Below, one piece after another: positions 776 through 60,425 of a DNA stretch of 64,000 bases. A program made the translations under genes and the position numbers. The notes below the pieces were generated by a model, which made no database searches, had not been told where the DNA came from, and worked only from the letters and a program-made list of their open reading frames with translations. The stretch's first letter is position 1. Every line of letters begins with the position of its first letter. The stretch comes from Verrucomicrobiia bacterium (GTDB lineage Bacteria > Verrucomicrobiota > Verrucomicrobiia > Limisphaerales > Fontisphaeraceae): contig JAOAIT010000018.1 of the NCBI GenBank assembly GCA_026414565.1, positions 310,001-374,000 of the forward strand. Reading direction: 5' to 3'.

Positions 776-2275
776 ATGAAAACATTGCACCTCGCCTGCC
801 GGAAGACCGGCCTGATTGTCATGGGATGTCTGTTCCTGGTCTGTGGTCTGTTCGCCGCAGAATCAACCGATTGGCAGTCCTTGTTTGACGGACAAACCTT
901 GAATGGCTGGCGGGCCAGTGAAAACCCGGGTTCTTTCAAAGTTGAAGCTGGCTGCATCGTGGCCGATGGCCCGCGTGCACACCTCTTTTATGTCGGCCCG
1001 GATGGGGGGGCATCGTTCAAGAACTTCGAGCTGGAATTCGAGGCCAAGGCCGGAGCCCTGGCCAACAGCGGGGTGTTCTTTCACAGCCGTTTTCAAGAGA
1101 AAGGTTTTCCAGGCGCCGGCCTGGAGGTGCAAATCCACAACGCCCGCCACGGCGAGGGCGATTACCGCGAGAATAAACTTACCGGCAGCCTTTACGGTGT
1201 GCGCAACGTGTACAAGGCCCTGGTAAAAGATGAAGAATGGTTCAAAATGGCCGTCCGGGTCAGCGGCAAACGCGTCCAAATTCGGGTCAATGGCACGCTG
1301 GTGGTGGATTATTTGGAGCCTACCCCCCCCTTCGCCAATCCAGAGCGTCCCGGGCGCCGCCTGGGCGAGGGCACTTTTGCCCTTCAATGCCACGATCCCA
1401 AAAGCAAAGTGTGGTTTCGCGGTCTTCGCGTGCGGCGCCTGCCCGATGCCGCACCCCCCGAGGACATCCGCGAATTTGCCATGACCGAGCATGACCGCTC
1501 GGTGCTGCGGCTGGGCGCGGCCAACTACCCCGTGGTCAACTATCACATGCATCTCAAGGGCGGCCTCACCCTGCCTGAGGCGCTGGCCGAATCGCGTCGC
1601 TCGGGGGTCTTTTACGGGGTGGCCGTCAACTGCGGAGTTGGTTTTGCCATCACCAATGACGCTGGCATTGACCAATTCCTCCAGGAAATGAAGGGGCAGC
1701 CCGTTTTCCTGGCCATGCAGGCTGAGGGCCGCGAATGGGTGAACATGTTCTCCCCCGAGGCCGTGGCCAAATTTGACTATGTATTCACCGACTCCATGAC
1801 CTTCACTGACCGGCAGGGCAAACGCATGCGCTTGTGGATCAAGGAGGAAGTGGGTGAAATCCGTGATAAGCAGGCCTTCATGGATTTGTTGGTGGAGAAA
1901 ACCGTGGAAATTCTAAATCGTGAAGCGGTGGACATTTACGTCAACCCCACGTTCCTGCCCGAGGTTCTGGCCGCAGAATATGACACGCTGTGGACCGCCG
2001 AGCGCATGAAACGCGTCGTGGATGCCGCCGCCGCCAATGGCGTGGCCATAGAGATCAACGCCCGGTACAAGCTGCCCAGTGCCGCCTTCATTAAAATGGC
2101 CAAAGCCGCCGGGTGTAAATTCACCTTTGGCACCAACAACGGCGGGCGTGAGGTGGGAGATTTGGATTATTGCTTCCAGATGGTGCGCGACTGCAACCTG
2201 CGCTGGCAGGATATCTGGACCCCCAAACCTGACGGGCAGAAACCCGTCCAACGCTACGGCAAACTTTTACGATGA
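776..2275 (+). CDS. Secreted DUF1080 - PHP-like metal-dependent hydrolase fusion
   Basis: This 499-residue protein has two halves. After a signal peptide (MKTLHLAC start, cleavage near GLFAAES), residues ~30-220 form a DUF1080 domain (SLFDGQTLNGW, NSGVFFHSRF, LEVQIHN). Residues ~255-490 resemble the PHP/histidinol-phosphatase-like TIM barrel: an N-terminal HxH metal motif (NYHMH), a later acidic motif (QAEGRE), and a C-terminal segment EINARYKLP followed by AGCKFTFGTNNGG, where classical PHP proteins carry a Ser-Asp-Ala-His motif. The ATG at 776 is preferred over upstream starts because it puts the signal peptide at the N-terminus. The stop overlaps the next start as ATGA, implying translational coupling. 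The substrate is unknown; a role in handling oxidised sugars is inference from the DUF1080 half. Confidence 0.8.
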   Translation: MKTLHLACRKTGLIVMGCLFLVCGLFAAESTDWQSLFDGQTLNGWRASENPGSFKVEAGCIVADGPRAHLFYVGPDGGASFKNFELEFEAKAGALANSGVFFHSRFQEKGFPGAGLEVQIHNARHGEGDYRENKLTGSLYGVRNVYKALVKDEEWFKMAVRVSGKRVQIRVNGTLVVDYLEPTPPFANPERPGRRLGEGTFALQCHDPKSKVWFRGLRVRRLPDAAPPEDIREFAMTEHDRSVLRLGAANYPVVNYHMHLKGGLTLPEALAESRRSGVFYGVAVNCGVGFAITNDAGIDQFLQEMKGQPVFLAMQAEGREWVNMFSPEAVAKFDYVFTDSMTFTDRQGKRMRLWIKEEVGEIRDKQAFMDLLVEKTVEILNREAVDIYVNPTFLPEVLAAEYDTLWTAERMKRVVDAAAANGVAIEINARYKLPSAAFIKMAKAAGCKFTFGTNNGGREVGDLDYCFQMVRDCNLRWQDIWTPKPDGQKPVQRYGKLLR

Positions 2276-4905
2276 CCACCGCTTCGCATCCGGCAGCCGC
2301 CGTCCCCCCCGATTCTCACAACCGTGATTTGAGTTTTTTCTCCACCGGCCTGCCCGGTTTGGACCGGACCCTGCAAAACCTTCAAGCCGGTGACAACGTG
2401 GTTTGGCAGGTGGAAACGGTGGATGAGTACCGGCCTTTTGTGCTGCCTTTCTGGGAGGAGTGCCTTCGCCAACGGCGGCCCCTGGTTTATTTTCGCTTTG
2501 GACGCCATGCCGAACTGATCTCGCCCGGGCAGGGGGGGAAATACCTGCGGCTGCGTCCGGAAGACGGGTTCGAAAAATTTGTCGGGGAAATTCTGGATGT
2601 CATCGAGGCTGAGGGGCTGGGCGCCTGCTACGTGTTTGACATGCTGAGCGACCTGGCGGCGGACTGGTACAGCGACCGCATGCTGGGCAATTTCTTCCGC
2701 ATCACCTGCCCCTTTTTGTATGACTTGAAGACGATCGCGTATTTCGGCCTGCGCAAGGATCATCATTCCTTTCACGCCACCGATCCCATTCACAACACAG
2801 CCCAAGTCGTGCTCGAAGTGCACCGCAAGCGCGACCAGCTTTATATCCACCCGCAAAAGGTGTGGCAGCGGCACTCGCCCACCATGTACATGCTACACGC
2901 CTGGGAGGGCCAGGAATTCAAGCCGGTCACAAACAGCGCGGTGATCACGGAAATCCTGGCTAGCGTGCCGCAGCCTTGGCTGGATTTCAGTGTGCATCGT
3001 CTGGGGGTCTGGGTGCGCACCTTTCGCCAAGCACAAGCCACCCTGAAGGCCGTGCAGCAAGGCCGCAAATCCAACGCCGAAGCCCAGGCCTTTTTCCAGC
3101 GCCTGGTGAAAATGGTGCTGACGCGCGAGGAGCGGTTCATTGCGCTGGCCCAACAATACCTGAGCCTGGCCGATCTCATTGAAGTCATGCAGCGCATGAT
3201 TGGCACAGGGCTGATCGGCGGCAAATCCCTGGGCATGCTGCTCGCCCGCGCCGTATTGCGCCAAAAACGGCCGGACTTGTGGCAGAAACTCGAAGGTCAT
3301 GATTCGTTCTTCATCGGCTCCGACGTATTTTACACTTATCTGGTGCAGAACGGCTGCTGGTGGCTGCGACGCCGCCAGAAGGATTTTGAAGTGCTCCTGC
3401 AGAACGCCGAACTGGCCCGTCAGAAAATCTTGGAGGGCGAATTTCCGGATTTCATTACCGAGCAGTTTGAGGAGATGCTCGAATATTTTGGCCAGTCCCC
3501 CATCATTGTCCGCTCCAGCAGCTTGCTGGAGGACAATTACGGCAATGCCTTTTCCGGCAAATATGAGAGTGTCTTCTGCGCCAACCAAGGCTCGCCCGAA
3601 GAACGGCTCCAGGCATTCATGCAGGCCGTGCGCACTGTATATGCCAGCACCATGAGCCGGGAGGGCCTGGAATATCGCCGGCATCATGGCCTGCTTGAAC
3701 GCGATGAACAAATGGCGCTGCTTGTGCAGCGGGTATCCGGCGAGATGTTCGGCACCACGTATTTTCCCCACCTGGCGGGGGTGGGCTTCTCGTTCAACCC
3801 GTTTGTCTGGCATGAGGATATTGACCCGCGGGCGGGGGTGTTGCGGCTGGTTTTTGGTCTGGGCACCCGGGCCGTGGACCGCACCGAGGATGACTACACC
3901 CGCCTGGTGGCCCTGAATGTGCCGCTCAAACAACCCGATGCCAAAGGCGGCATTGCCCGTCAATTCACGCAACGCCGCGCTGATTTGCTCGACCTGGCCG
4001 CCAATCAACTCACTTCCCGCGAATTCCGAGAACTCGCTCCGCAACTGCCGGCCTCACTGCGCGACTGGCTGGCCTCCGAAGGACAAAGTGGGGAGGGCGA
4101 CTGGGTGCTTAATTTTGATCCACTGCTGGCGCAAACGCCCCTCGCCACGGACTTGCGCGAAATGCTGCGCACCCTGGAGGAGGCGTATGATTATCCGGTG
4201 GATGTCGAATTCACCGTGAATTTTCTTCCCAACGGGCAGTATCGCATCAACTTGCTGCAATGCCGGCCCTTCCAGGTGAAAATCCGCGGTGAAGGCAGCC
4301 GGGTGCGGATTCCGGGCCACATCCAGCCCCAGGATGTGGTGCTGGAATCCTCGGGCCCCATCATCGGGCACAGTCTGGCGACGGAGGTGGACCAGATTAT
4401 CTATGTTGTCCCGCGGGTTTATTCACAAATGAGCATGAGCCAGCGCTATTCCGTGGCGCGCACGGTGGGACGGCTCACCCATTTGCATGCGGAACGGCGG
4501 CCGACCATCATGATTATCGGCCCGGGCCGCTGGGGCACGTCCATGCCCTCGCTGGGCGTGCCGGTCTCCTTTGCGGAAATCAACACCGTCTCCGTCATTT
4601 GCGAGCTGGCCTTGATGCATGAAGGTCTTATTCCCGACATTTCCCTGGGGACTCACTTTTTCAATGATTTAGTGGAGATGGACATGCTGTATCTGGCCGT
4701 GACTCCTGGCAAGGAAGGCTATCGTTTTAACGAAGAGCTGCTGCTTGCGCAAACCAACCGGCTGGCCCAATTGCTACCCTCTGCCGGGGCCCTGGCGGAA
4801 GCCATCTGGGTGGTGGAGGGCGGCCAGAACCATGCCCAGTTCTTTCTGAATGTGGATTCCATGTCGCAGAAAGCTCTGGCCTACCGCGAGCAGAAGGCTG
4901 ATTAA
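2272..4905 (+). CDS. Orphan PEP/pyruvate-binding (PPDK-N ATP-grasp) protein with N-terminal degenerate RecA/KaiC-like domain
   Basis: The 877-residue protein has no signal peptide. Residues ~20-230 resemble a RecA/KaiC-type NTPase (FFSTGLPGLDRTLQNLQAGD, Walker-B-like ACYVFDM), but where Walker A (GxxxxGKT) is expected it reads VETVDEYRPF, so P-loop chemistry looks lost. Residues ~310-680 contain the PEP synthase/PPDK nucleotide-binding signature (GGKSLGMLLAR, then IIVRSSSLLEDNYGNAFSGK) and a distal LLQCRPF. The last ~180 residues hold GPGRWGTSMPSLGVPV and PDISLGTHFFNDLVE, a tail seen in PPDK-like orphan proteins. The phosphohistidine swivelling domain and the PEP-binding barrel of true PEP synthase are both absent, so this is not a standard PpsA/PpdK. 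It overlaps the upstream gene by 4 bp. A phosphotransfer or regulatory role is possible but unproven. Confidence 0.8.
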   Translation: MTTASHPAAAVPPDSHNRDLSFFSTGLPGLDRTLQNLQAGDNVVWQVETVDEYRPFVLPFWEECLRQRRPLVYFRFGRHAELISPGQGGKYLRLRPEDGFEKFVGEILDVIEAEGLGACYVFDMLSDLAADWYSDRMLGNFFRITCPFLYDLKTIAYFGLRKDHHSFHATDPIHNTAQVVLEVHRKRDQLYIHPQKVWQRHSPTMYMLHAWEGQEFKPVTNSAVITEILASVPQPWLDFSVHRLGVWVRTFRQAQATLKAVQQGRKSNAEAQAFFQRLVKMVLTREERFIALAQQYLSLADLIEVMQRMIGTGLIGGKSLGMLLARAVLRQKRPDLWQKLEGHDSFFIGSDVFYTYLVQNGCWWLRRRQKDFEVLLQNAELARQKILEGEFPDFITEQFEEMLEYFGQSPIIVRSSSLLEDNYGNAFSGKYESVFCANQGSPEERLQAFMQAVRTVYASTMSREGLEYRRHHGLLERDEQMALLVQRVSGEMFGTTYFPHLAGVGFSFNPFVWHEDIDPRAGVLRLVFGLGTRAVDRTEDDYTRLVALNVPLKQPDAKGGIARQFTQRRADLLDLAANQLTSREFRELAPQLPASLRDWLASEGQSGEGDWVLNFDPLLAQTPLATDLREMLRTLEEAYDYPVDVEFTVNFLPNGQYRINLLQCRPFQVKIRGEGSRVRIPGHIQPQDVVLESSGPIIGHSLATEVDQIIYVVPRVYSQMSMSQRYSVARTVGRLTHLHAERRPTIMIIGPGRWGTSMPSLGVPVSFAEINTVSVICELALMHEGLIPDISLGTHFFNDLVEMDMLYLAVTPGKEGYRFNEELLLAQTNRLAQLLPSAGALAEAIWVVEGGQNHAQFFLNVDSMSQKALAYREQKAD

Positions 4906-6232: not shown

Positions 6233-6403
6233 GGGCTGCGTTAATGATAGCCCATCGGCTCCACCGCGCAAGCTTGCCCATGGCAGACTTTCTGACGGGG
6301 GCAGAGTCTGATATCGCAGGCCAATTCCAAAGTGACCCGATTTCTTAAGTTATTGACCGGCAACCTCATTGTCCCCGGCCCGGGAACATGGCAAATTGAG
6401 GCC

Positions 6404-8917
6404 ATGCACGTGCCAACGACAGCCCTCGATGGCCGGCGAATCATGCCGGCGCTTTTGTGGTGTTTGGGGATTTGGGTGGCTGCCATGGGCACTGTGTCCG
6501 CCGCCTCGGTGAGCGTTTATTCCCGGGCGCCGGTTGGGGAGCAGAACCCCTGGTACGTGGGCAGCCGCGCCCCGTTGCGACCGGTCCCCTTTATAAAACT
6601 GCCCATCGGCAGCATTCAGCCCCGTGGCTGGCTGCGGCATCAACTGGAACTCGACCGCGAAGGCATGGTGGGCCGTCTGGCAGAAATCTCTCCCTGGCTG
6701 CGCAAGGAGAATCATGCCTGGCTCGCCCGGGATGGACGCGGACACAGCGCATGGGAGGAATTGCCCTATTGGCTCAAGGGTTTCGGCGATTTGGGTTATG
6801 TGTTGCAGGACCAGGAGTTGATCAAGGAGGCCAGAATCTGGATCGAGGCCATGCTTGCCAGTCAGGACGATACGGGATGGTTTGGCCCGCGGGAATTGCA
6901 GAAATCCCTGCAGGGCCGCCCCGACCTGTGGCCCCACATGGTCATGCTCAATGTTCTGCAGTCCTACTACGAATACAGTGGCGACACCCGCGTGCTCACC
7001 TGCATGACCCGTTATTTCCGCTGGCAAAACCAACTGCCACCAGAAACCTTCGGCGCCGGCTATTGGCCCCGGATGCGTTTTGGCGACAACCTGGAAAGTG
7101 TTTACTGGCTTTATCATCGCACGGGCGACGCCTTCCTGCTCGACCTGGCCCGTAAGATTTTCGAGAACATGCAGGACTGGACCACCGGCGTGCACAACTG
7201 GCACAACGTGAACATCGCCCAGGGATTCCGAACGCCCGCCATTCACTTTCTACAGAGCGGCAGTTTGCTGCATCGGGAGGCCCCGGAGCGCAATTACCAG
7301 CAGGTCATGTCCCTCTATGGGCAGTTTCCCGGGGGCGGTTTTGTGGGCGATGAAAATTGCCGTCCCGGTTATGTTGATCCACGTGGTGGCATCGAGACCT
7401 GCGGCATCGTCGAGTTCACCCACAGTTTTCAAATGCTGACCCGCATCACCGGCGATCCAGTTTGGGCGGAACGCTGCGAGGAGATCGCCTTCAACAATTT
7501 CCCGGCGGCCCTGACCCCGGACCATCGGGCTTTGCACTACATCACCAGCGCCAATCAGGTGCAACTGGACCGGCACAACAAAGCCCCCGGCATTCAAAAC
7601 AGCGGGACAATGTTTTCCTACAGCCCTTTTGAGGTGTACCGCTGCTGTCAGCACAACGTCTCGCACGGTTGGCCGTATTATGCCGAAGAACTGTGGCTGG
7701 CCACTGCAGACCGCGGTTTGTGTGCCTCTTTATATGCCGATTGCGACGTCAAGGCCAGGGTGGGGAGCAGCGGGCAGGAGGTGACCGTGCAGCAACGCAC
7801 GGACTATCCGTTCAGCGACACGGTCACCTTCACCCTGCAAACCCCCGGCGCGGTGGCTTTTCCCTTATACCTGCGGCTGCCAGCCTGGTGTGCCCGTCCG
7901 ACCATCACCCTGAATGGCCGCCCCATTCCTTTCAAAGCTCCACAACGCGGTTATGTGGCATTGAACCGCACCTGGCAAAACGGGGATACTCTCGTATTAC
8001 GGCTGCCCATGCGCCTGGCTGTCCGCACGTGGAAAGCGCAGAAAAACGCGGTCTCCGTGGACTATGGCCCGTTAAGTTTTTCGCTGCAGATTGGGGAGCG
8101 CTGGGAAAAATATGGCCATCGTCACCCCAACTGGCCGGAATGGGAGGTCTTTCCCACCACGGCCTGGAATTACGGCCTGGCCTTGCCTGAGACCAACCCC
8201 GCCTCCGTCCTGGAATTGGTGCGGCGCCCCGGACCCTTGGCCAGGCAACCGTGGACCGCCGAGTCTGCGCCGCTTCTGGTACGGGTGCCCGCGCGCAAAA
8301 TACCGGCGTGGCAGATGGACGTCCGCAACATGGTGAACCCGTTGCAAGCCAGCCCAGCACGTACCGCTGAACCGTTGGAAACTGTGACGCTCATTCCCAT
8401 GGGCGCCGCCCGCCTGCGCATCGCCTGCTTTCCCACCGTCACCACCACCGGGGGACACGAATGGATCGAGCCACCGAAACCCCGCCCCTCGCCCTTCAAA
8501 CCGCTGGCCTCCCATGTTAATCCCTCGGACACCCTTGACGCGCTTCACGACGGTTTGGAACCGGTCAATTCCAACGACCATGACATCCCACGCTTCACCT
8601 GGTGGGATCACCGGGGCACGCAGGAATGGGTGCAATACAACTTTGATCAACCGCGCCGCGTGGCGGGGGTGGCGGTGTATTGGTTTGATGACACCGGCGT
8701 GGGGCAATGCCGGGTGCCGGCTTCCTGGCGCATCCTTTATCGCCAGAATGGACAATGGCAGCCGGTGAAGAATCCCAGCCCCGCCGGCGTCCAACGCGAT
8801 GCCTGGAATGAAGTACGCTTTGATGCCGTCCTCACGGAGGGACTGCGGTTGGAGGTCCAACTGCAAAACAAGTACTCCGGCGGCATCCTCGAATGGAAAG
8901 TGTTGGAAGCGCCGTAG
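6404..8917 (+). CDS. Secreted GH127-type beta-L-arabinofuranosidase-like enzyme with discoidin-like C-terminal domain
   Basis: The 837-residue enzyme starts at the ATG at 6404, which has a GAGG-like ribosome site just upstream and leaves a signal peptide (MPALLWCLGIWVAAMGTVSA). The (alpha/alpha)6 catalytic domain covers ~residues 55-600. The zinc-thiolate site known for GH127 (Glu-x-Cys plus a Cys-Cys pair, one Cys acting as nucleophile) is intact: E331-T-C333 in IETCG and C414-C415 in YRCCQHN. Residues ~690-837 form an F5/8 type C-like module (HDGLEPVNSNDHDIPR, RGTQEWVQY, YWFDDTG) that closely matches the tail of the next gene. It heads a + strand run with two more polysaccharide enzymes, galK and galT. 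The family is secure; the exact glycan is inference (beta-L-arabinofuranosides of plant or algal polymers). Confidence 0.87.
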   Translation: MHVPTTALDGRRIMPALLWCLGIWVAAMGTVSAASVSVYSRAPVGEQNPWYVGSRAPLRPVPFIKLPIGSIQPRGWLRHQLELDREGMVGRLAEISPWLRKENHAWLARDGRGHSAWEELPYWLKGFGDLGYVLQDQELIKEARIWIEAMLASQDDTGWFGPRELQKSLQGRPDLWPHMVMLNVLQSYYEYSGDTRVLTCMTRYFRWQNQLPPETFGAGYWPRMRFGDNLESVYWLYHRTGDAFLLDLARKIFENMQDWTTGVHNWHNVNIAQGFRTPAIHFLQSGSLLHREAPERNYQQVMSLYGQFPGGGFVGDENCRPGYVDPRGGIETCGIVEFTHSFQMLTRITGDPVWAERCEEIAFNNFPAALTPDHRALHYITSANQVQLDRHNKAPGIQNSGTMFSYSPFEVYRCCQHNVSHGWPYYAEELWLATADRGLCASLYADCDVKARVGSSGQEVTVQQRTDYPFSDTVTFTLQTPGAVAFPLYLRLPAWCARPTITLNGRPIPFKAPQRGYVALNRTWQNGDTLVLRLPMRLAVRTWKAQKNAVSVDYGPLSFSLQIGERWEKYGHRHPNWPEWEVFPTTAWNYGLALPETNPASVLELVRRPGPLARQPWTAESAPLLVRVPARKIPAWQMDVRNMVNPLQASPARTAEPLETVTLIPMGAARLRIACFPTVTTTGGHEWIEPPKPRPSPFKPLASHVNPSDTLDALHDGLEPVNSNDHDIPRFTWWDHRGTQEWVQYNFDQPRRVAGVAVYWFDDTGVGQCRVPASWRILYRQNGQWQPVKNPSPAGVQRDAWNEVRFDAVLTEGLRLEVQLQNKYSGGILEWKVLEAP

Positions 8918-8981
8918 TGCCATCACTTCGGCGTGACATCCTCTCAAGCGGCTGGCAATTTGCAGATCGTTGAAAGCGCAC

Positions 8982-11420
8982 ATGAAACATCTAACCATCA
9001 CCCTGACGGCGTGGGGCATGCTCACCGGGCTTGTTGGCGCTGCCCAGTCCCAGGATTATCCCTATCAACCGGTTCCCTTCACCGCGGTGACCGTGCAGGA
9101 TTCCTTTTGGTCTCCGCGTTTCGAAACCAACCGTCATGTGACGGTCTGGTATGACTTCAAGAAATGCGAGGAGACCGGCCGCATTGATAATTTTGCCAAG
9201 GCGGGCGGCCTCATGCCGGGGTCCTTCCAAGGGATCCCCTTTGATGACTCCGACGTGTACAAGGTCATCGAGGGCGCGGCATACATCCTGGCCATGCAGC
9301 CGGATCCCAAATTGGACAAATATCTGGACGAGCTCATCACCAAGATTGCCGCCGCCCAGGAACCGGATGGATACTTGTACACCGCCCGGCGGCTCTTCCC
9401 GCCAGACAAAATGCCGGCGATGTCCGGGCCGACCCGATGGAGCAACCTTAAGGACAGTCATGAATTGTATAATGTGGGACATCTTTATGAGGCCGCCGTG
9501 GCCCATTTCCAGGCCACAGGCAAACGCTCCCTCCTCAACGTGGCCCTTAAAAACGCGGATTTTCTCTGCGAGACGTTTGGCCCAGGCAAGGTGCAATACC
9601 CGCCGGGGCATCAGGAAATTGAAATCGGCCTCGTCAAACTCTATCGCGTGACGGGTGAGAAAAAATACCTCAACCTGGCCAAATACCTGTTGGACATCCG
9701 CGGCCGCCCGGAAACGCACAAGCTCTACGGCCCATACAGCCAGGACCATGTGCCGGTCATTGAGCAAAAAGAGGCCGTGGGCCATGCCGTCCGCGCCGGC
9801 TATATGTACTCCGGCATGGCGGACGTGGCCGCCATTACCGGGGAGCGGGCTTACATTGATGCGATTGGCCGCATCTGGGAGGACGTGGTCTCCGGCAAGA
9901 TGCATTTGACGGGCGGCATTGGAGCCCGCCCGGAGGGAGAGGCGTTTGGCAATAAATACGAGCTGCCCAATAAAACGGCCTATTTGGAAACCTGTGCGGC
10001 CATCGCCAACGCCCTGTGGAACCATCGCATGTTCCTGCTGCACGGCGACACCAAATACCTCGACGTTTTGGAACGTGTCATCTACAACGGTTTCTTGTCC
10101 GGGGTTTCCTTCAGCGGGGATCGCTTCTTTTACCCCAATCCGCTGGAAGCCGATGGGCGCACGAAATTCAACCACGGCTCCAATGAACGGCAGGCCTGGT
10201 TTGGCTGCTCCTGCTGTCCGGTGAACGTGGTGCGTTTCATCCCTTCGATCGCCGGTTACATCTACGCCCTGCGCGGCAATAACGCTTACGTGAACCTGTT
10301 CATCGGCGGCAGTGGAGAGATGGAAATCAACGGACAAAAAGTGCGTCTGGAACAAACCACCCGCTATCCCTGGGAAGAAACCGTCCGCATCACCGTCAAG
10401 CCGCAACGTGCCACCCGCTTTGCCCTGCACGTGCGCATTCCCGGCTGGGCCCGTCAACAACCCGTACCCAGTGATTTGTACCGCTACCTGGACGAGCCGG
10501 CCAACAACGCCGCGCCCCGCCTGACCGTCAACCGCCGCTCCCAGCCGCTGCAATTGGACAAGGGATTTGCGGTCATTGACCGCACCTGGCGCAGTGGCGA
10601 CGTCGTGGAGTTGACCCTGCCCATGCCGCCGCGTCGTGTCGTGGCTCATCCGGCGGTGAAGGATAATGAAGGCCGGGTGGCCATCGAACGCGGCCCCGTG
10701 GTGTATTGCGCGGAAGCCTTGGACAACGGAGGCCGCGCCCTCAATCTGGTGTTGGATGATCAGGCCCCGCTGCGCACGGAATGGCGGCCGGGTTTGTTGC
10801 ATGGGGTGACGGTGGTCAAGGCCCGCGGCCAGGCGGTCACACGTGCCACCGACGGCCGCGTGGTCACTCAACCCACGGAAATTATGTTAGTCCCCTATTA
10901 CGCCTGGAATCACCGCGGCGTCGGCGAAATGACTGTCTGGCTCCCCCGCACTCCAGATCGCGCCCAGGTGCCCCCGCCCCCCACCTTGGCAGGTATGAGC
11001 AAAGTGTCTGCTTCGCACGTCTGGCACCTGGATACGGCCGCCGCCGCCCATGACGGCCTGGAGCCTAAAAATAGTGGGGATCATGATATTCCCCGCCTGA
11101 CCTTCTGGGATCACCGCGGCACGCAAGAATGGGTCCAGTATGACTTTCCCCAAACCGCCACCGTGGCAGCCACGGAAGTTTATTGGTTTGATGATACCGG
11201 CCGGGGCAGTTGTCGTGTCCCCGCTGCCTGGCGTGTGCTTTACCGCGACGGGCAAGCGTGGAAGGCCGTCCAGACTGAAAATGAATACACTGTTCGCAAG
11301 GACGCTTACAACAAGGTGACCTTCGCACCGGTGACCACCACCGCCTTGCGGCTCGAAATCCAGCTTCAGCCCGGTTACTCCGCCGGCCTGCTGGAATGGA
11401 AAGTTTCTCCCAAGCCTTGA
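8982..11420 (+). CDS. Secreted GH127 beta-L-arabinofuranosidase with discoidin-like C-terminal domain
   Basis: The 812-residue protein starts at the ATG at 8982; an in-frame TTG at 8970 is less likely. The signal peptide is MKHLTITLTAWGMLTGLVGA. The catalytic domain opens with VTVQDSFWSPRFETNR, typical of GH127, and carries the family zinc/nucleophile residues: E336-T-C338 (YLETCAA) and C411-C412 (GCSCCPVN). A beta-domain follows (~530-660). The C-terminal ~130 residues repeat the discoidin-like module of the preceding enzyme (HDGLEPKNSGDHDIPR, YWFDDTGRGSCRVP). The gap to the upstream gene is 64 bp and to the next chosen start 11 bp, so co-transcription is likely. Having two different GH127 catalytic domains on one tail type suggests they act on the same insoluble substrate. 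Confidence 0.9.
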   Translation: MKHLTITLTAWGMLTGLVGAAQSQDYPYQPVPFTAVTVQDSFWSPRFETNRHVTVWYDFKKCEETGRIDNFAKAGGLMPGSFQGIPFDDSDVYKVIEGAAYILAMQPDPKLDKYLDELITKIAAAQEPDGYLYTARRLFPPDKMPAMSGPTRWSNLKDSHELYNVGHLYEAAVAHFQATGKRSLLNVALKNADFLCETFGPGKVQYPPGHQEIEIGLVKLYRVTGEKKYLNLAKYLLDIRGRPETHKLYGPYSQDHVPVIEQKEAVGHAVRAGYMYSGMADVAAITGERAYIDAIGRIWEDVVSGKMHLTGGIGARPEGEAFGNKYELPNKTAYLETCAAIANALWNHRMFLLHGDTKYLDVLERVIYNGFLSGVSFSGDRFFYPNPLEADGRTKFNHGSNERQAWFGCSCCPVNVVRFIPSIAGYIYALRGNNAYVNLFIGGSGEMEINGQKVRLEQTTRYPWEETVRITVKPQRATRFALHVRIPGWARQQPVPSDLYRYLDEPANNAAPRLTVNRRSQPLQLDKGFAVIDRTWRSGDVVELTLPMPPRRVVAHPAVKDNEGRVAIERGPVVYCAEALDNGGRALNLVLDDQAPLRTEWRPGLLHGVTVVKARGQAVTRATDGRVVTQPTEIMLVPYYAWNHRGVGEMTVWLPRTPDRAQVPPPPTLAGMSKVSASHVWHLDTAAAAHDGLEPKNSGDHDIPRLTFWDHRGTQEWVQYDFPQTATVAATEVYWFDDTGRGSCRVPAAWRVLYRDGQAWKAVQTENEYTVRKDAYNKVTFAPVTTTALRLEIQLQPGYSAGLLEWKVSPKP

Positions 11421-11431
11421 ATTCTAGAACC

Positions 11432-14400
11432 ATGCAACAGAAACAACACCACGCTATGCAAGCCAACCTTCGTAACAATGCCATCCTTCTCAAGGTCTTC
11501 CTGCTGGCCCTGCTCCTCGGCAGCAGTTCGGCCGCCTTGTCGGCCGCCTGGCAACCTGCCAAGGGCCGCCTGATGACCCGCTGGGCCAAGGACGTGAAGC
11601 CCGACAAGGTGCATCCTGAATATCCCCGCCCGCAACTGGTGCGCGAACGATGGCAAAATCTCAACGGCCTTTGGGATTATGCCATTACCGATCGTCAGGC
11701 CCCGCGCCCCTCGCAATGGGACGGCCAGATTCTCGTCCCTTTCCCCATTGAATCCGCCCTGTCCGGCGTGATGAAGATGGTCAATGAAAACCAGCGATTG
11801 TGGTATCGCCGCTCTTTCCGCATCCCGGCCGCCTGGAAGGGCCAGCGGGTGATGTTGAATTTTGGGGCCGTGGACTGGGAGGCCACCGTTTATGTCAACG
11901 GCAGGCAACTGGGCACTCACCGCGGGGGTTATGACGCCTTCAGCTTCGACATTACCGACGCCCTCAATCCCGGCGGTGAGCAGGAAATCGTGGTGGCCGT
12001 GTGGGATCCCACCGATGCCGGTTACCAGCCCCGCGGCAAACAAATCCGCAATCCGCACGGGATTTGGTACACCCCCTGCAGCGGCATTTGGCAGACGGTC
12101 TGGCTTGAACCTGTCGCCCCCACCCATATTCAAAAACTGGTGATTACGCCTAATGTGGACAGCAGCTCGGTGGACCTCACCGCCCAGCTCGCCGTCTCGG
12201 GCGGCAAAGTGGCCATCAAAGCGGTGGTTTATGATGGAAAGAAGGCCATCCGCGAAGCCACCTTGGAAATCAGCGACACGGCGGGCGGCAAAGCCGCACC
12301 CCGCCTGACCCTGCCCGTGCCAAATGCCAAGCTGTGGTCGCCGGATTCACCTTTCCTTTATGACCTAAAAATCACAGTTTCACAGAATGGACGGACGGTG
12401 GACGCCGTGGATTCCTACTTCGGCATGCGCAAAATTTCGCTGGGGAAGGATGAGCAAGGCATCCTGCGCCTGTGCCTGAACAACAAACCCCTGTTCCAAT
12501 TTGGCCCGCTGGATCAAGGATTCTGGCCGGATGGCATCTACACGGCTCCCACGGACGAAGCCCTGCGCTATGACATTGAGATGACGCGCAAGCTCGGTTT
12601 CAACATGGCACGCAAACACGTCAAAATCGAGCCGGCGCGCTGGTATTACTGGGCTGACAAACTTGGCCTCCTGGTATGGCAGGACATGCCCAGCGGCGAT
12701 CGCTATATTGGCAGCCGCGATCCCGACATCACCCGCAGCCCTGAATCCGGGGCCAACTTTGAGCGTGAACTCCAGGCTATGGTGGAAGGTTTTTATAATC
12801 ACCCCTCGATCGTCATTTGGGTGCCTTACAATGAGGGTTGGGGGCAATGGGACACCTGCCGCATTGTGGACCTTATCAAGCGCTGGGACCCCACCCGCCT
12901 GGTCATCAATGCCAGTGGTTGGGCCGACCGCCGTTGTGGTGACATTCATGACATCCATAGTTACCCCGGCCCGGACGTGCCGCCTCTGGAGGCCAACCGC
13001 GCTGTCGTGCTGGGTGAATTCGGCGGCCTCGGCCTGCCCCTCAAAGGCCACACCTGGCAGGATGAACGCAACTGGGGTTACCGCAGTTACCAGACCAGGG
13101 AAGAGCTGACCGACGCCTACGTCACCCTCATCAAACGGATGCACGCCCTGACCGGCGACCGTGGCCTCGCTGCGGCCGTTTACACCCAAACCACAGATGT
13201 GGAAATTGAAGTCAACGGCCTCATGACGTACGACCGCGCCCTGGTCAAAATGGATGAAGCGGCCATTACCGCGGTGAATAAATCCGTCTATACGCCCCCT
13301 GCCCCACGCCGTGCGCAAGCCAACAAACTAGTGCCGCCCGCCACACCGTTGGTGGCGTGTGATCCCTATTTCAGCATCTGGTCACAAGCCGATAAATTGC
13401 ATGACACAGACACCACGCATTGGACGGGCCGCCCCCACCGCCTGACCAGCCTGGTGCGGGTGGATGGTAAAGCTTTTCGCCTCATCGGGGCCAGCCCCGC
13501 CACCCTGCCCGCCATGGAGCAAAAAGACCTGCTCGTGCTCCCCACCCGGACCGTTTATTTGTTCGAGGGGGCGGGCATTGAGTTGACCTTGACCTTCATG
13601 ACCCCGGCGTTGCCGGAGGATATTGATATACTCTCCCGCCCCGTCACCTACATTACCTATGATGTCCGATCAACGGATGGCCGGACACATGACGTGAGCG
13701 TATATTTTGATGCCCATGCGGAAATTACTGTCAATGAACCCCGCCAACAGGTGACTTTCTCCACCGAGGACACGGCCGCCCTGGCCGTGCTGAAAATGGG
13801 CTCACAGGATCAACCCATTCTGGCCAAAAAAGGCGATGACCTTCGCATTGACTGGGGCTACCTATATGTCGCCGCTCCCAAAGACCAGGTCAAGGTGGCG
13901 CGGCTATTGCCGGCCCCCCTGGCTCGCGGGGCTTTCGCCAGCGGCGGAGAATGGCCGATGGCCAAGCTGGCTGTCACCGTCGCGGCCAGTGAAGCGCCGC
14001 TGATGGCAATGGCATTGGAGGTGGGCCGCGTGGGCACCCTGCCCGTTTCGCGCTGGCTCATGGTGGCTTATGACGACCTGTACTCCATTCAATACATGCG
14101 CAAGAACTTGCGCCCTTACTGGCGGCGCAACGGCTGGGAGGCCAAAGATCTGCTGGAGGCTTCAGCGCGGGATTACGCCGCCCTCAAGCAGCGCTGTGCC
14201 AATTTCGATGTGGAACTCATGGCCGACCTGACCCGCGTGGGTGGCGCCAATTATGCCCGACTGGCCGCCCTGGCCTACCGCCAATGCTTTGCGGCGGGCA
14301 AATTTGTCGCGGATGATAACGGTCAGCCATTGCAGTTTTCCAAGGAAAACCACAGCAACGGCTGCATCGGGACCTCTGACGTGTTCTACCCGATGGCCCC

Positions 14401-15820
14401 GCAATTTCTGCTTTTCGGCCCTTCGCTGGCCAAATCCTTCCTGGTGCCGTTCATGAACTATGCCGCCAGCGAGCGGTGGAAGTTTCCGTTTGCGCCGCAT
14501 GACCTGGGCACCTACCCCAAGGCCAACGGCCAGGTTTACGGCGGCGGGGAGCGGTCCGAGCGGGATCAAATGCCGGTGGAGGAATCCGGCAACCTGCTCA
14601 TCCTGATGGCCGCGGTGGCCCAGATGGAAGGCAATGCCAACTTTGCCAGCCTGTATTGGAAGCAGCTCACCCAATGGGCGGAATACCTCAAAGAAAAAGG
14701 TTTTGACCCCGAAAACCAGCTTTGCACCGATGACTTTGCCGGGCACCTGGCGCACAATGTCAATCTCAGCGCCAAAGCCATCATGGGGCTGGCGTCCTAT
14801 GGCAAACTGTGCGCCCTGCGCGGAGAACAGGCCAAAGCCGACGAATACCTTAAGCTGGCCCGGGAGTTTGCCGCCCGCTGGATCAAGGAAGCTGATGACG
14901 GCGAAAAATTCCGCCTGGCTTTTGACCGACCCGGCACCTGGAGCCAGAAGTACAATTTGGTGTGGGATCGCATCCTGGGCTTCAATATTTTCCCGGACAG
15001 CGTCCTGAAAAAGGAAATGGCCTTCTACCGCAAGATGCAAAACAAATATGGCCTGCCGCTGGACAACCGCTCCACCTACACCAAGCTGGACTGGATTACA
15101 TGGACAGCTACGCTCACCCAGAACCGGGCCGACTTTGAGGCGTTGGTTGACCCCATCCTGCTGTTTCTGAATGAGACGCCGGATCGGTCGCCCATGACCG
15201 ACTGGTATCACACCCACAACGCGCGCAAAGTTGGTTTTACGGCGCGCCCGGTGGTCGGCGGCGTCTTTTTACCCATGCTCTACGACAAAGCGTTGTGGAG
15301 CAAATACGCGGCCCGCGATAAAACCAAGGCGGGCAATTTTGCCCCCATGCCCAAACCGCCGGTGATGGTGACCGTTGTGCCCACGGCGCAGGATGAGGCG
15401 GTGATCTGGCGTTACACCACCCAGCGTCCCCCGGAGGATTGGATGAAACCGGGGTTTGACGATCGCAACTGGCGGGAAGGTAAAGCAGGCTTTGGGACGG
15501 CAGGCACTCCCGGCGCCATCATCGGCACCGTATGGAACACGCCCTCCATCTGGCTGCGACGGGAGTTCACCCTGCCGGCAGTTGATGTTCAAGGCATTGT
15601 CCTCAAGGCGCATCACGATGAAGACATGGAAATTTACATCAACGGTGTGCTGGCGGCCTCGGCCTCCGGGTACATCACCGATTATGAGGAATTCCCTATC
15701 AGCCCGGCGGCGTTGAAAACCTTGAAGCCCGGCCCCAACGTCATTGCCGTGCGCTGCCGGCAAACCGGCGGCGGCCAATACATTGACGTGGGCTTCTCGC
15801 GGATCGCAGAGCAAAAGTAG
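11432..15820 (+). CDS. Secreted GH2 glycosidase fused to a glutaminase-A-like (DUF4965/DUF1793) module and a C-terminal jelly roll
   Basis: This is a 1462-residue multidomain exoenzyme. Starts at 11432 and 11456 are both possible; an ATG at 11396 would overlap the upstream gene. A signal anchor (AILLKVFLLALLLGSSSAALSA) is followed by a GH2 sugar-binding domain (LNGLWDYAI, LWYRRSFRIP, VYVNGRQLG) and a GH2 TIM barrel. The acid/base Glu is E468 (VPYNEGWGQWD) and the nucleophile E529 (VVLGEFGG). From ~residue 635 the sequence changes to a GtaA-type region (TPLVACDPYFSIWS, then KENHSNGCIGTSDVFYP, RPVVGGVFLPML) as in DUF4965/DUF5127/DUF1793 proteins. The last ~140 residues are another carbohydrate-binding-like fold (WLRREFTLP, MEIYINGVL). 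No frame break was seen, so the fusion looks real. The specificity of either half is not predictable. Confidence 0.87.
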   Translation: MQQKQHHAMQANLRNNAILLKVFLLALLLGSSSAALSAAWQPAKGRLMTRWAKDVKPDKVHPEYPRPQLVRERWQNLNGLWDYAITDRQAPRPSQWDGQILVPFPIESALSGVMKMVNENQRLWYRRSFRIPAAWKGQRVMLNFGAVDWEATVYVNGRQLGTHRGGYDAFSFDITDALNPGGEQEIVVAVWDPTDAGYQPRGKQIRNPHGIWYTPCSGIWQTVWLEPVAPTHIQKLVITPNVDSSSVDLTAQLAVSGGKVAIKAVVYDGKKAIREATLEISDTAGGKAAPRLTLPVPNAKLWSPDSPFLYDLKITVSQNGRTVDAVDSYFGMRKISLGKDEQGILRLCLNNKPLFQFGPLDQGFWPDGIYTAPTDEALRYDIEMTRKLGFNMARKHVKIEPARWYYWADKLGLLVWQDMPSGDRYIGSRDPDITRSPESGANFERELQAMVEGFYNHPSIVIWVPYNEGWGQWDTCRIVDLIKRWDPTRLVINASGWADRRCGDIHDIHSYPGPDVPPLEANRAVVLGEFGGLGLPLKGHTWQDERNWGYRSYQTREELTDAYVTLIKRMHALTGDRGLAAAVYTQTTDVEIEVNGLMTYDRALVKMDEAAITAVNKSVYTPPAPRRAQANKLVPPATPLVACDPYFSIWSQADKLHDTDTTHWTGRPHRLTSLVRVDGKAFRLIGASPATLPAMEQKDLLVLPTRTVYLFEGAGIELTLTFMTPALPEDIDILSRPVTYITYDVRSTDGRTHDVSVYFDAHAEITVNEPRQQVTFSTEDTAALAVLKMGSQDQPILAKKGDDLRIDWGYLYVAAPKDQVKVARLLPAPLARGAFASGGEWPMAKLAVTVAASEAPLMAMALEVGRVGTLPVSRWLMVAYDDLYSIQYMRKNLRPYWRRNGWEAKDLLEASARDYAALKQRCANFDVELMADLTRVGGANYARLAALAYRQCFAAGKFVADDNGQPLQFSKENHSNGCIGTSDVFYPMAPQFLLFGPSLAKSFLVPFMNYAASERWKFPFAPHDLGTYPKANGQVYGGGERSERDQMPVEESGNLLILMAAVAQMEGNANFASLYWKQLTQWAEYLKEKGFDPENQLCTDDFAGHLAHNVNLSAKAIMGLASYGKLCALRGEQAKADEYLKLAREFAARWIKEADDGEKFRLAFDRPGTWSQKYNLVWDRILGFNIFPDSVLKKEMAFYRKMQNKYGLPLDNRSTYTKLDWITWTATLTQNRADFEALVDPILLFLNETPDRSPMTDWYHTHNARKVGFTARPVVGGVFLPMLYDKALWSKYAARDKTKAGNFAPMPKPPVMVTVVPTAQDEAVIWRYTTQRPPEDWMKPGFDDRNWREGKAGFGTAGTPGAIIGTVWNTPSIWLRREFTLPAVDVQGIVLKAHHDEDMEIYINGVLAASASGYITDYEEFPISPAALKTLKPGPNVIAVRCRQTGGGQYIDVGFSRIAEQK

Positions 15821-15931: not shown

Positions 15932-17098
15932 ATGTCGCTCACGCAACTGGTTCAGAAAACCAAACAGCAATTCACCAAAAAATTTGGCCAGGCTCCGCAA
16001 TGGCTCGCCGCCGCCCCCGGGCGGGTTAACGTCATCGGGGAGCACACCGATTACAACGATGGTTTCGTGCTCCCCATGGCGATCGAAAATTGCACGGTGG
16101 CCGCCGCCGCTCCCGCTTCAAATGGCGCCCTGCGCCTGCGGTTGGGCAGCGGAGAAAAACCGGAACTGGTGGAAATCCCCCTCCAGGGCCGGGTGTCCAA
16201 GGGGGATCCGGCCTGGGCCAACTACGTGCGCGGCGTCATCGCCGGCTTTCAGGATTTGGGCATTAAGCTGCCGTCCCTGGATGTGTTCATTGAAAGCGAT
16301 GTTCCCCTGGGGGGAGGACTTTCCAGCAGCGCCTCCTTGGAGGTGGCCACGGCCACCCTGCTGGAGGCGGTGACCGGACACAAACTGGACCCCGTGCAAA
16401 AGGCGCTGCTCTGTCAAAAAGCCGAGCATGAATATGCCGGCATGCCCTGCGGCATCATGGATCAATTCATCTCGTTGATGGGCAAAGCCGGGCATCTGCT
16501 CCTGCTGGACTGCCGGTCGCGGCAGACAGAACTGGTGCCCATGAGCGATCCCACGCTGGCCTTTCTCATCGTCAATACCAACGTGAAACACGAGCTGACC
16601 GGCGGCGGTTACGCCAAACGCCGTGAGCAATGTTACGAGGCGGCACGGGTGTTGGGGGTGCCCATGTTGCGTGATGCCACCATGGACCAGTTGGAAGCGG
16701 CAAAATCACGCCTGGACCCTGTCGTCTTTCGCCGCGCACGGCACGTGATTGGAGAAATCGAGCGCACTACACGGGCCGCCCGCGAGATTAAGGCCGCCCG
16801 CTGGACGGAGGTGGGTCAATTGATGTATGCCAGCCACGATTCCTTGCGCGACGACTACGAGGTGAGCTGCCCTGAACTGGATGCGGTGGTCGAACTGGCC
16901 CGGGAAATTGGCCCCGCGGGGGGCGTCATCGGATGCCGGATGACGGGCGGCGGTTTTGGCGGCTGTGCGGTGGCGCTGGTGGAATCCGCCCGCGTGGAGC
17001 AGCTTGCCCAAAAAATCGCCGAGGGGTATTGCAAACGTACCGGCATTCAACCGGCGTGTTTTGTCTCGCGTCCGGCGGACGGGGCGCGGATCATTTAA
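15932..17098 (+). CDS. galK: Galactokinase
   Basis: GalK phosphorylates alpha-D-galactose to galactose 1-phosphate with ATP in the cytoplasm, the first committed Leloir step. The 388-residue length fits the family. The galactokinase signature [16 protein letters not shown] occurs near residue 30, the GHMP ATP-binding motif as [11 protein letters not shown] near residue 128, and the third GHMP motif as [11 protein letters not shown] near residue 335. The ATG at 15932 gives the usual N-terminus; a longer in-frame extension from 15881 has no supporting feature. It lies 43 bp upstream of galT and follows the glycoside hydrolases on the same strand, implying that galactose released outside is used here. 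Confidence 0.97.
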
Positions 17099-17141
17099 TT
17101 CCGAGCCAAAGATTTCCGGACTGGCGCATCCCTCCCCAAGC

Positions 17142-18191
17142 ATGACGGCTCCCACCTTTAATCCCGAACATCACCCCCATCGGCGTCTGAATCTGCTCAC
17201 GGGCGAGTGGGTGCTGGTCTCCCCGCATCGCACTCAGCGCCCCTGGCAAGGGCAACAGGAGGCCGCCCCCCCTGACCAGCGTCCTGCCTATGATCCCAAG
17301 TGTTATCTGTGCCCCGGCAACCGGCGCGCCGGAGACGCGGTGAATCCGGCCTACACGCACACCTTTGTTTTTCGCAATGATTTCTCCGCGCTGTTGCCGG
17401 ATACGCCCCTGCTGGGGGGTGTCACGGATGGATTGCTGCGCTGCGAGCCGGTTCAGGGCGAATGCCGCGTCATCTGCTTTTCACCCCGGCACGATCTGAC
17501 CCTGCCCGAAATGGAAGTGGCCGACATCCGCCGCGTGGTGGAACTCTGGGCCCAGCAGGCCGGGGAACTCGGGGCCCGTTACTCGTGGGTTCAGATCTTT
17601 GAAAACAAGGGTGCCATCATGGGCTGCTCCAATCCCCATCCCCACGGCCAGATTTGGGCCAGCAGTTTTCTGCCGCGCCTGCCTCAACAGGAAGATGTGG
17701 CCCAAAAGGACTATGCCCAGCGTATGGGGCGCCCGCTCTTGCTGGACTATTGCGCCCTCGAGCAGCAGGAGGAGCGACGCATCATCGAAGCCAATGCTCA
17801 TTGGGTGCTGCTGGTCCCTTACTGGGCGGTTTGGCCGTTTGAGCTGCTGCTGCTGCCACGCCGCCATGTGTTGCGCCTGCCCGACTTGACGCCGGACGAA
17901 CGCGACAGTCTGGCGGAAATCCTCCAACGGGGTCTGTCCCGCTACGATAATTTATTCCAGGTCAGCTTCCCCTACTCCATGGGATGGCATGGCGCCCCTT
18001 TTGCCGCGGGGGATTTTTCTCACTGGCAGTTGCACGCGCACTTCTATCCCCCGCTGCTTCGCTCGGCCACCATCAAGAAGTTCATGGTGGGTTATGAAAT
18101 GCTGGCCGAGCCGCAGCGCGATTTGACACCGGAGCAGGCCGCCACCCGCCTGCGCGAACTTTCGCCGGTACATTACCGACACCGGGCCTGA
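17142..18191 (+). CDS. galT: Galactose-1-phosphate uridylyltransferase
   Basis: GalT exchanges UMP between UDP-glucose and galactose 1-phosphate through a uridylyl-histidine intermediate. The 349-residue protein has the zinc-binding CYLCPGN near residue 48 and the catalytic NPHPHGQIW, in which the second His of HPH is the nucleophile. [14 protein letters not shown] and the C-terminal [10 protein letters not shown] are also typical of the family. The ATG at 17142 restores the normal start ([20 protein letters not shown]). It follows galK by 43 bp and is followed by a strong hairpin, so it probably ends the operon. The natural partner galE is not present in the window. Confidence 0.96.
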
Positions 18192-57573: not shown

Positions 57574-57593
57574 GCTCGCTGGTTGGCTGTGGT

Positions 57594-59966: not shown

Positions 59967-60008
59967 AATTATGTTATCAAGCAACTGATAAACGGAACGT
60001 GTAAACAT

Positions 60009-60037: not shown

Positions 60038-60425
60038 CAGGTGAATACAAACTCAATTATCAGGTTGTAAATGGTGGACGTTGCGCCAGTTTGCAAGGCG
60101 ATCCAGGGATGTCGCGGCGTAACAACTTGCCGAAGGCGGTGCGGGGACAATCGAACAAGCAGTCGGCCTGGATGCCGGGTTCGTCGGCGGTGGTGACGAG
60201 CTTTTGATAGAGCCAGTCGCAGTTAGTCTTCATGCGAGAGAGTACAATTAAACACCTCCTCCTTGCGGCGGGAGTTCATCACCACGGGCTGTCCCACAAG
60301 GAGATCACCATCCCGCCAGCCTTTGCCATCACCATAATCATAATAATTCAGAGGTCTTTTTTCCCTGCACCCATGCGAAAAAAGCGAAGGCTTGTATGGG
60401 CGGGAAATCGGCATATTCTGAGCCT
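60038..60425. other. Intergenic region with short, unrecognised minus-strand frames
   Basis: A minus-strand frame of 57 codons (60233 down to 60060; MKTNCDWLYQ ... PPFTT) overlaps the end of another short frame (60414 down to 60223; MPISRPYKPS ... CTLSHED). AAGGAGGAGGTG lies 16 nt before the first ATG, too far for a typical ribosome site. Neither frame resembles a known family, and their overlap suggests a decayed gene or non-coding upstream sequence for the DUF5107 gene. Nothing else was seen. Confidence 0.35.

Follow-up and report, generated by a model that had tools for sequence, protein, structure and literature searches.

A recurrent fusion of a GH2 module to a 'glutaminase A' module that looks like a clan GH-O glycosidase

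Introduction

The glutaminase A (GtaA) family reportedly owes its name to a glutaminase of Aspergillus oryzae, from work by Koibuchi in 2000. JJB111 is a probe of the cyclophellitol type. In PMC9668830 (papers given here by PMC number are drawn on in excerpt), this glycosidase probe labelled a fungal homologue with four domains of unknown function (DUFs), for which HHpred indicated similarity to the glycoside hydrolase (GH) families GH116 and GH52, and a four-DUF homologue from Streptomyces was a weak beta-galactosidase (0.85 U/mg) with no glutaminase activity. That the GtaA family might be glycosidases is thus not a new idea, since the same paper proposed in 2022 that four-DUF proteins may be glycoside hydrolases; GtaA-type proteins are still named glutaminase, among them the fungal protein of PMC9668830 and 2 of the 14 plasmid records matched here ('glutaminase family protein'). 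Here we analyse a 64,000-nt stretch of a Verrucomicrobiia genome (GCA_026414565.1, contig JAOAIT010000018.1, positions 310,001 to 374,000; the window), in which one gene joins a GtaA-type module to a GH2 glycosidase and a jelly roll.

Two described proteins, Phchr2|3002168 and WP_074995790 (PMC9668830), share the DUF4964-DUF5127-GtaA arrangement of residues 620–1285 of the fusion protein, but they stand alone at 691 and 752 residues, and the excerpt mentions neither a GH2 domain nor a jelly roll. For the GH2 module the relevant comparison is with the furanosidase subfamilies GH2_18 and GH2_19, to which a 2025 subfamily paper assigns the structures 9J6M and 7XYR, respectively (PMC12243196). The galactofuranosidase ORF1110 of Streptomyces sp. 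JHA19 (GH2_18; PDB 9J6M/9J6N) released galactose from fungal galactomannan and, in the excerpt, showed no arabinofuranosidase activity (PMC4560423). A further exo-galactofuranosidase family, GH182, comes from Bacteroides finegoldii (PMC10115798), and no link between it and the GtaA family was found in the literature excerpts examined. Among open-licence PMC papers we found no published description of a GH2-GtaA fusion; what is new here is its recurrence, the GH127 partner, the link to galK and the residue mapping of the GtaA module.

Architecture of the fusion protein

The fusion gene is a single open frame of 1462 codons from an ATG at 11432 to a stop at 15820, and an alternative start at 11396 would add 12 residues. 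Its parts are as follows.

11432..15820, + strand: fusion gene, 1462 residues, GH2, GtaA-type module (DUF4964/DUF5127/PF16335) and jelly roll, from Pfam; like the fusion in the same-genus genome G001
11432..11548, + strand: N-terminal hydrophobic stretch, residues about 1–39, a probable signal peptide judged by eye
11564..13276, + strand: GH2 module, residues 45–615, with D418, E468, E529 and T585, from Pfam and conservation; nearest characterised relative a GH2_18 beta-D-galactofuranosidase
13289..15286, + strand: GtaA-type module, residues 620–1285, clan GH-O-like fold, predicted nucleophile E972 and acid/base D1101, with T981, D983, H1023 and T1099
15329..15817, + strand: C-terminal jelly roll of GH2 N-terminal type, residues 1300–1462, likely carbohydrate-binding or structural, from an AlphaFold2 (AF2) model

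Pfam places GH2 domains at residues 93–505, DUF4964 at 620–692, DUF5127 at 705–932 and GtaA_6_Hairpin (PF16335) at 938–1280 (2e-134), so that the domains of both enzymes lie within the 1462-codon frame, as the earlier note on this DNA had proposed. All exceed their curated cut-offs: the glutaminase A-like families PF16334, PF17168 and PF16335 occur in order at 68, 194 and 449 bits, and an extra GH2-type match, BetaGal_ABD2, reaches 26.6 bits against a cut-off of 23. All 12 NCBIfam matches fall in the GH2 part, as does the sole PADLOC match, to a model that includes a beta-galactosidase. No Pfam family matches the last 160 residues. The AF2 model of residues 1294–1462 is a beta-sandwich (predicted local distance difference test, pLDDT, 89.5) whose best structural matches are N-terminal domains of GH2 enzymes (Z 14.0, root-mean-square deviation (rmsd) 3.1 over 131 residues), and the terminal sugar-binding-type jelly roll named in the earlier note was therefore rightly recognised; its role is likely carbohydrate-binding or structural.

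The GtaA-type module

In an AF2 model of residues 619–1462 built from 29 sequences (pLDDT 84.4; predicted template modelling score, pTM, 0.85), the GtaA module is predicted to comprise an N-terminal beta-sandwich and a C-terminal (alpha/alpha)6 barrel, as in clan GH-O. Its structural matches are TxGH116 (Z 29.7, rmsd 3.8, 625 residues), GH52 xylosidases (Z 29.6, 3.2, 590) and the GH116 exo-beta-D-arabinofuranosidase ExoMA2 (Z 25.9, 3.5, 615), and Foldseek agrees, with 1.3e-20 to a GH116. Across this range of Z, 25.9–29.7, the fold is shared, whereas sequence identity is 10–13%, and phmmer returned no match to the GtaA part among PDB sequences at E 0.1. Membership of GH116 proper was rejected, as a Pfam scan of the fusion protein at E 0.001 found no PF04685.

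In TxGH116 the catalytic residues are E441 and D593, with D452, H507 and T591 at the sugar (PMC10167657). Across 61 aligned GtaA sequences, which span Verrucomicrobiota, Planctomycetota, Bacteroidota, Bacillota, Actinomycetota and an archaeon, E972, T981, D983, H1023 and D1101 are invariant and T1099 is kept in 59. The step of 11 from E972 to D983 and the T1099-x-D1101 motif equal the TxGH116 pairs E441/D452 and T591/D593, respectively, and D1257 and R1272, 15 apart like E777 and R792 of TxGH116, are kept wherever the alignment covers them, in 58 rows, the other 3 being gaps. By this correspondence, which rests on spacing for the Glu, the Asp and the T-x-D motif and on order for the His, E972 and D1101 are the candidate nucleophile and acid/base. 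ExoMA2 differs from the GtaA module in having His446 and Arg483, which read a furanose, at the places of TxGH116 D452 and H507 (PMC10509167); the Asp/His pair of the GtaA module appears to be of the TxGH116 form, and the module therefore leans towards a pyranoside substrate.

Taken with the predicted fold, these residues make the GtaA half look like a clan GH-O-type glycosidase. The label 'glutaminase' is probably wrong, because the module looks like a sugar-cutting enzyme and has been joined to, or paired with, GH2 more than once in relatives.

The GH2 module

Against solved structures the GH2 half scores 701 bits with 7sf2, 577 with the Streptomyces galactofuranosidase 9j6n and 331 with 7xyr. 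As to the CAZy subfamily, the 577 bits to a GH2_18 member against 331 to a GH2_19 member, both single-sequence scores, may point to GH2_18. The half also has the GH2 N, immunoglobulin-like and TIM-barrel domains, the NE motif and the Glu nucleophile typical of GH2 group III (GH2_18). An intact GH2 with E468 and E529 had been claimed in the earlier note, and the two residues lie in the motifs NEGWGQ and GEFGG and are conserved in 65 and 64 of 65 GH2 rows, respectively; the one row lacking E529, L116, shows a gap there, its frame being truncated by a contig end, and the putative acid/base (E468) and nucleophile (E529) are kept in all 29 fused rows. D418 is conserved in 65/65 rows and T585 in 64/65, the latter, within YTQ, standing at what may be the position where other GH2 enzymes have the Trp of the -1 subsite, which a conserved Thr replaces in GH2 group III.

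The module aligns end to end with ORF1110, with the acid/base, nucleophile and D418 places conserved, and D418 and E468 fall at the places of Streptomyces D423 and E464 (a common 23-residue offset, hand-counted on the alignment). Mutants of these two residues retained 1.8% and 2.6% activity, the worst of 18 tabled mutations (PMC4560423). ORF1110 differs in having an AbfB domain, in whose stead the window protein has the GtaA module and jelly roll. Judged by sequence, the GH2 half is nearest, among characterised enzymes, to a GH2_18 beta-D-galactofuranosidase, and its candidate active site is intact.

Distribution of the fusion

The earlier note had set beforehand, as the finding that would overturn the fusion, a frameshift or lost stop near 13320–13340; instead, the genome G001, of the same genus, carries the same fusion on one contig in a 1463-codon frame, and the fusion is no sequencing artefact. 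PF16335 is present in 23 of the 58 genomes searched (the window's own included), and in 10 of these it is fused in one frame with GH2, in frames of 1461–1513 codons; in G047 the PF16335 gene is cut by a contig end before any GH2 could be seen, so that its fusion status is uncallable. A wider sample of 194 genomes across the phylum, again with our own, has PF16335 in 29, with 4 frames of more than 1300 codons, our own included, a count by length only.

Across the loci scanned, 29 de-duplicated loci have GH2 and GtaA modules in one frame, 26 in the order GH2-GtaA-jelly roll and 3 as GH2-jelly roll-GtaA; among the 29, L069 ends without reaching the jelly roll, L077 occupies two overlapping frames and the cut in L099 falls in its GtaA part. 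The second order belongs to three Planctomycetota loci, two of them Thermoguttaceae, and a protein scan of L103 confirms it. Other genomes encode GH2 or GtaA on its own, or either one joined only to a jelly roll. The best named match is a Verrucomicrobiae metagenome-assembled genome (MAG) at 73% identity, whereas L063, a Planctomycetota MAG, is the nearest named row on the GtaA tree.

Explaining the label 'single' on the GtaA tree (55 rows) takes 9 changes, 3 of them forced by starred branches; for the common fusion the GH2 tree (65 rows) requires 7, 2 of them forced by starred branches. Both trees are quick and long-branched, one of the 'single' rows, L074, is truncated at its beginning, and a change may be a gain as well as a loss. 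That GH2 and GtaA were joined at least twice is indicated most safely by the existence of two module orders. The statement that the GtaA module is normally stand-alone was thus only partly right: it does occur alone, but it is also fused to GH2 in two orders and, in one relative, to GH43. That relative has a 2472-residue frame (L040:3080-10495, − strand) with a GtaA-type module, a jelly roll, DUF4380, a second jelly roll and a GH43 domain, by its sequence a second kind of GtaA-glycosidase fusion.

Two variants of the GtaA type itself were seen. In Hoylesella nanceiensis (L118:7962-10568, + strand) a jelly roll lies within the N-terminal portion of the GtaA module, close to where the DUF4964 region ends, and is not terminal; at L052:1379-6647 (− strand) there is a tandem pair of GtaA-type genes with overlapping stop-to-stop frames.

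Gene neighbourhood

The earlier note had placed the gene in a sugar operon, and it does sit in a run of sugar genes on one strand, with two GH127 genes upstream and galK/galT downstream.

6332..8917, + strand: divergent GH127-like protein (GH127a), a recurrent neighbour of GH2 and GtaA genes; weak match to PF07944
8970..11420, + strand: GH127 protein, best NCBIfam match aceric acid hydrolase at 495 bits, below the cut-off of 950
15932..17098, + strand: galactokinase gene galK, its ATG at 15932 in frame with the listed stop
16956..18191, + strand: galactose-1-phosphate uridylyltransferase gene galT, a listed open reading frame whose true start is probably about 17142

GH127a keeps E367-x-C369 and C450-C451 in 17/17 rows (numbered from the frame's first codon, 6296), motifs that we take to be the zinc and nucleophile residues of the GH127 family. 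G001 carries the same set of two GH127 genes, fusion and galK/galT, and G013 has two GH127 genes and galK. Overall, a listed GH127 lies within 8 kb of PF16335 in 10 of the 23 genomes (0.68 expected under random placement; 5 fused and 5 unfused) and galK in 4 (0.14 expected), and galactose is therefore a likely product; the GH127 count is a lower bound, and G000 and G001 belong to one genus. A control family, GH116, occurs within 8 kb in none of the 23, with an expectation of 0.16.

Elsewhere the modules can be encoded by separate adjacent genes: GH2, GtaA and GH127a in L047, GH127b, GH2 and GtaA in L056, and GH2, GH2 and GtaA in the Bacteroidales locus L114. A plasmid locus of Hymenobacter volaticus (NZ_CP095068.1 52690-65551) likewise encodes GH2, DUF4965 and GH127 together, but as separate genes in a SusC/SusD locus, and its GH2 match spans two annotated frames. 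The GH127a clade recurs beside GH2 group III and GtaA genes in relatives and, through a similar protein, in Hymenobacter. In Bacteroides finegoldii (L144) and Hymenobacter tibetensis (L145), DUF4965 genes stand in SusD-type loci beside GH76 and GH92, or GH125 mannan enzymes, a context that would fit a galactofuranose-bearing fungal mannan. Two further DUF4965 loci carry no annotation.

Proposed function and alternatives

The single frame, the predicted folds of the GtaA module and jelly roll, the similarity of the GH2 half to solved structures, the invariant candidate catalytic sets, the recurrence of the fusion and its neighbourhood lead us to favour, with moderate confidence, a secreted bifunctional exo-glycosidase in which a GH2 furanosidase and a clan GH-O-type GtaA half feed GalK and GalT. 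The protein would be exported, given its probable signal peptide, and the C-terminal jelly roll would position the chain on a glycan. We infer that both halves are active and act in turn on one and the same glycan: the GH2 half would take off a terminal furanoside, most likely beta-D-galactofuranose (Galf) or alternatively alpha-L-arabinofuranose, by a retaining mechanism with E468 as acid/base and E529 as nucleophile, and the GtaA half would then remove the exposed neighbouring sugar, most likely a beta-D-galactopyranoside-like one, by the retaining mechanism of clan GH-O with nucleophile E972 and acid/base D1101. GH127a may remove a third furanoside, and the freed galactose would enter the Leloir pathway through GalK and GalT. 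Of the earlier suggestion that the GtaA module may act on glycans or glycoprotein linkages, the fold, the invariant residues and the neighbourhood favour glycans, and nothing found points to a glycoprotein linkage.

A broader and distinctly more tentative proposal extends to the bacterial family. The ring of alpha-D-Galf matches that of beta-L-arabinofuranose, the known substrate of GH127. The bacterial 'glutaminase A' family could be a misnamed clan GH-O family which, with GH2 group III (beta-D-Galf) and GH127a (alpha-D-Galf), strips Galf glycans to galactose, the GtaA enzyme taking the adjoining galactoside. Should the family prove to be glycosidases, its glutaminase names would be misleading, and an enzyme missing so far for glycans with galactose or galactofuranose would have been identified; the fusion makes the status of this probably misnamed family testable, since a single chain offers two halves that can be separated, each with a predicted nucleophile, and galactose as the read-out.

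Several points weigh against the bifunctional glycosidase. To our knowledge 7sf2, the best-scoring structure for the GH2 half, has no published activity. The GtaA catalytic residues are placed by spacing and invariance and not by coordinate superposition; H1023 is paired with TxGH116 H507 by order alone, at a spacing of 51 against 66; and D1024, E1050, E1051 and D1179 are also invariant in 61/61. Profiles of GtaA and GH116, both shallow, aligned collinearly in hhalign but only weakly (E 0.0098, probability 4%), and the acid/base stayed unaligned. By the same hand-counted offset E529 corresponds to Streptomyces E530, and E530A left 15.2% activity, milder than expected for a nucleophile (PMC4560423). 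As to the neighbourhood, within 8 kb GH127 is absent from 13 of the 23 genomes and galK from 19, the uniform-placement null is lenient because sugar genes cluster, and the GH116 control had an expectation of only 0.16. Most of the 29 fusion loci show no common neighbour: the GH127 cluster takes in 4 of them and the galK cluster 3, to which a neighbour scan adds L069 with a GH127 and L036 with a weak one, though many flanks are short, cut by contig ends. The DUF4965 genes of Parabacteroides and Halomontanus adjoin no annotated glycosidase.

Among the alternatives, the one that survives best, though we consider it unlikely, makes the GH2 half an alpha-L-arabinofuranosidase in a locus (GH127 twice, GH2, GtaA-type) that degrades an L-arabinose-rich plant glycan, the galactose genes serving its galactan backbone. 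The GH127 Pfam is named for beta-L-arabinofuranosidase and the protein at 8970–11420 is nearest to an aceric acid hydrolase model, both in its favour, whereas ORF1110, the nearest characterised relative with a structure, lacked arabinofuranosidase activity in the excerpt of PMC4560423, and galK with galT follows the fusion gene in the window and G001, and galK follows the gene in G013.

It is very improbable that the GtaA module is non-catalytic in the fusion and merely a binding or structural unit for GH2. In favour of this, the published activity that we found for the family is the weak one cited above (PMC9668830), but E972, T981, D983, H1023 and D1101 do not vary in either the fused or the separate copies, unlike what decay after fusion would leave.

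Slightly less probable still is that the module is a genuine glutaminase or amidase working outside the cell, which would trim glycoproteins rich in glutamine while GH2 trims their sugars. Beyond the family name, this reading can point to peptidase genes about 5 kb or more from the DUF4965 genes in L144 and L145. Against this, the predicted fold matches clan GH-O glycosidases and the invariant residues appear to be theirs, three DUF4965 homologues directly adjoin glycosidases (GH76 and GH92; GH125; GH2 and GH127), and the Streptomyces homologue did not convert glutamine in the excerpted assays (PMC9668830). On these grounds we rejected it as the leading reading, and nothing found points to a role of the module in glutamine cleavage. 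The last alternative, an assembly or sequencing error that joined two genes, which are indeed neighbours in L047 and L056, is rejected outright by the same one-frame fusion on one contig in G001 and in the 29 de-duplicated loci, L077 being split over two frames.

Other features of the window

Upstream of the sugar genes, positions 2272-4905 (+ strand) encode a protein of 877 residues whose one Pfam-recognised domain is the PPDK N-terminal ATP-binding domain. Away from the fusion locus, a second GH2 gene (+ strand) and a gene for a GH127 with a DUF6805 domain (− strand) lie end to end at 54778-60008. At the end of the window, 60396-63890 (+ strand) encodes a DUF5107 protein of 1164 residues with tetratricopeptide (TPR) repeats.

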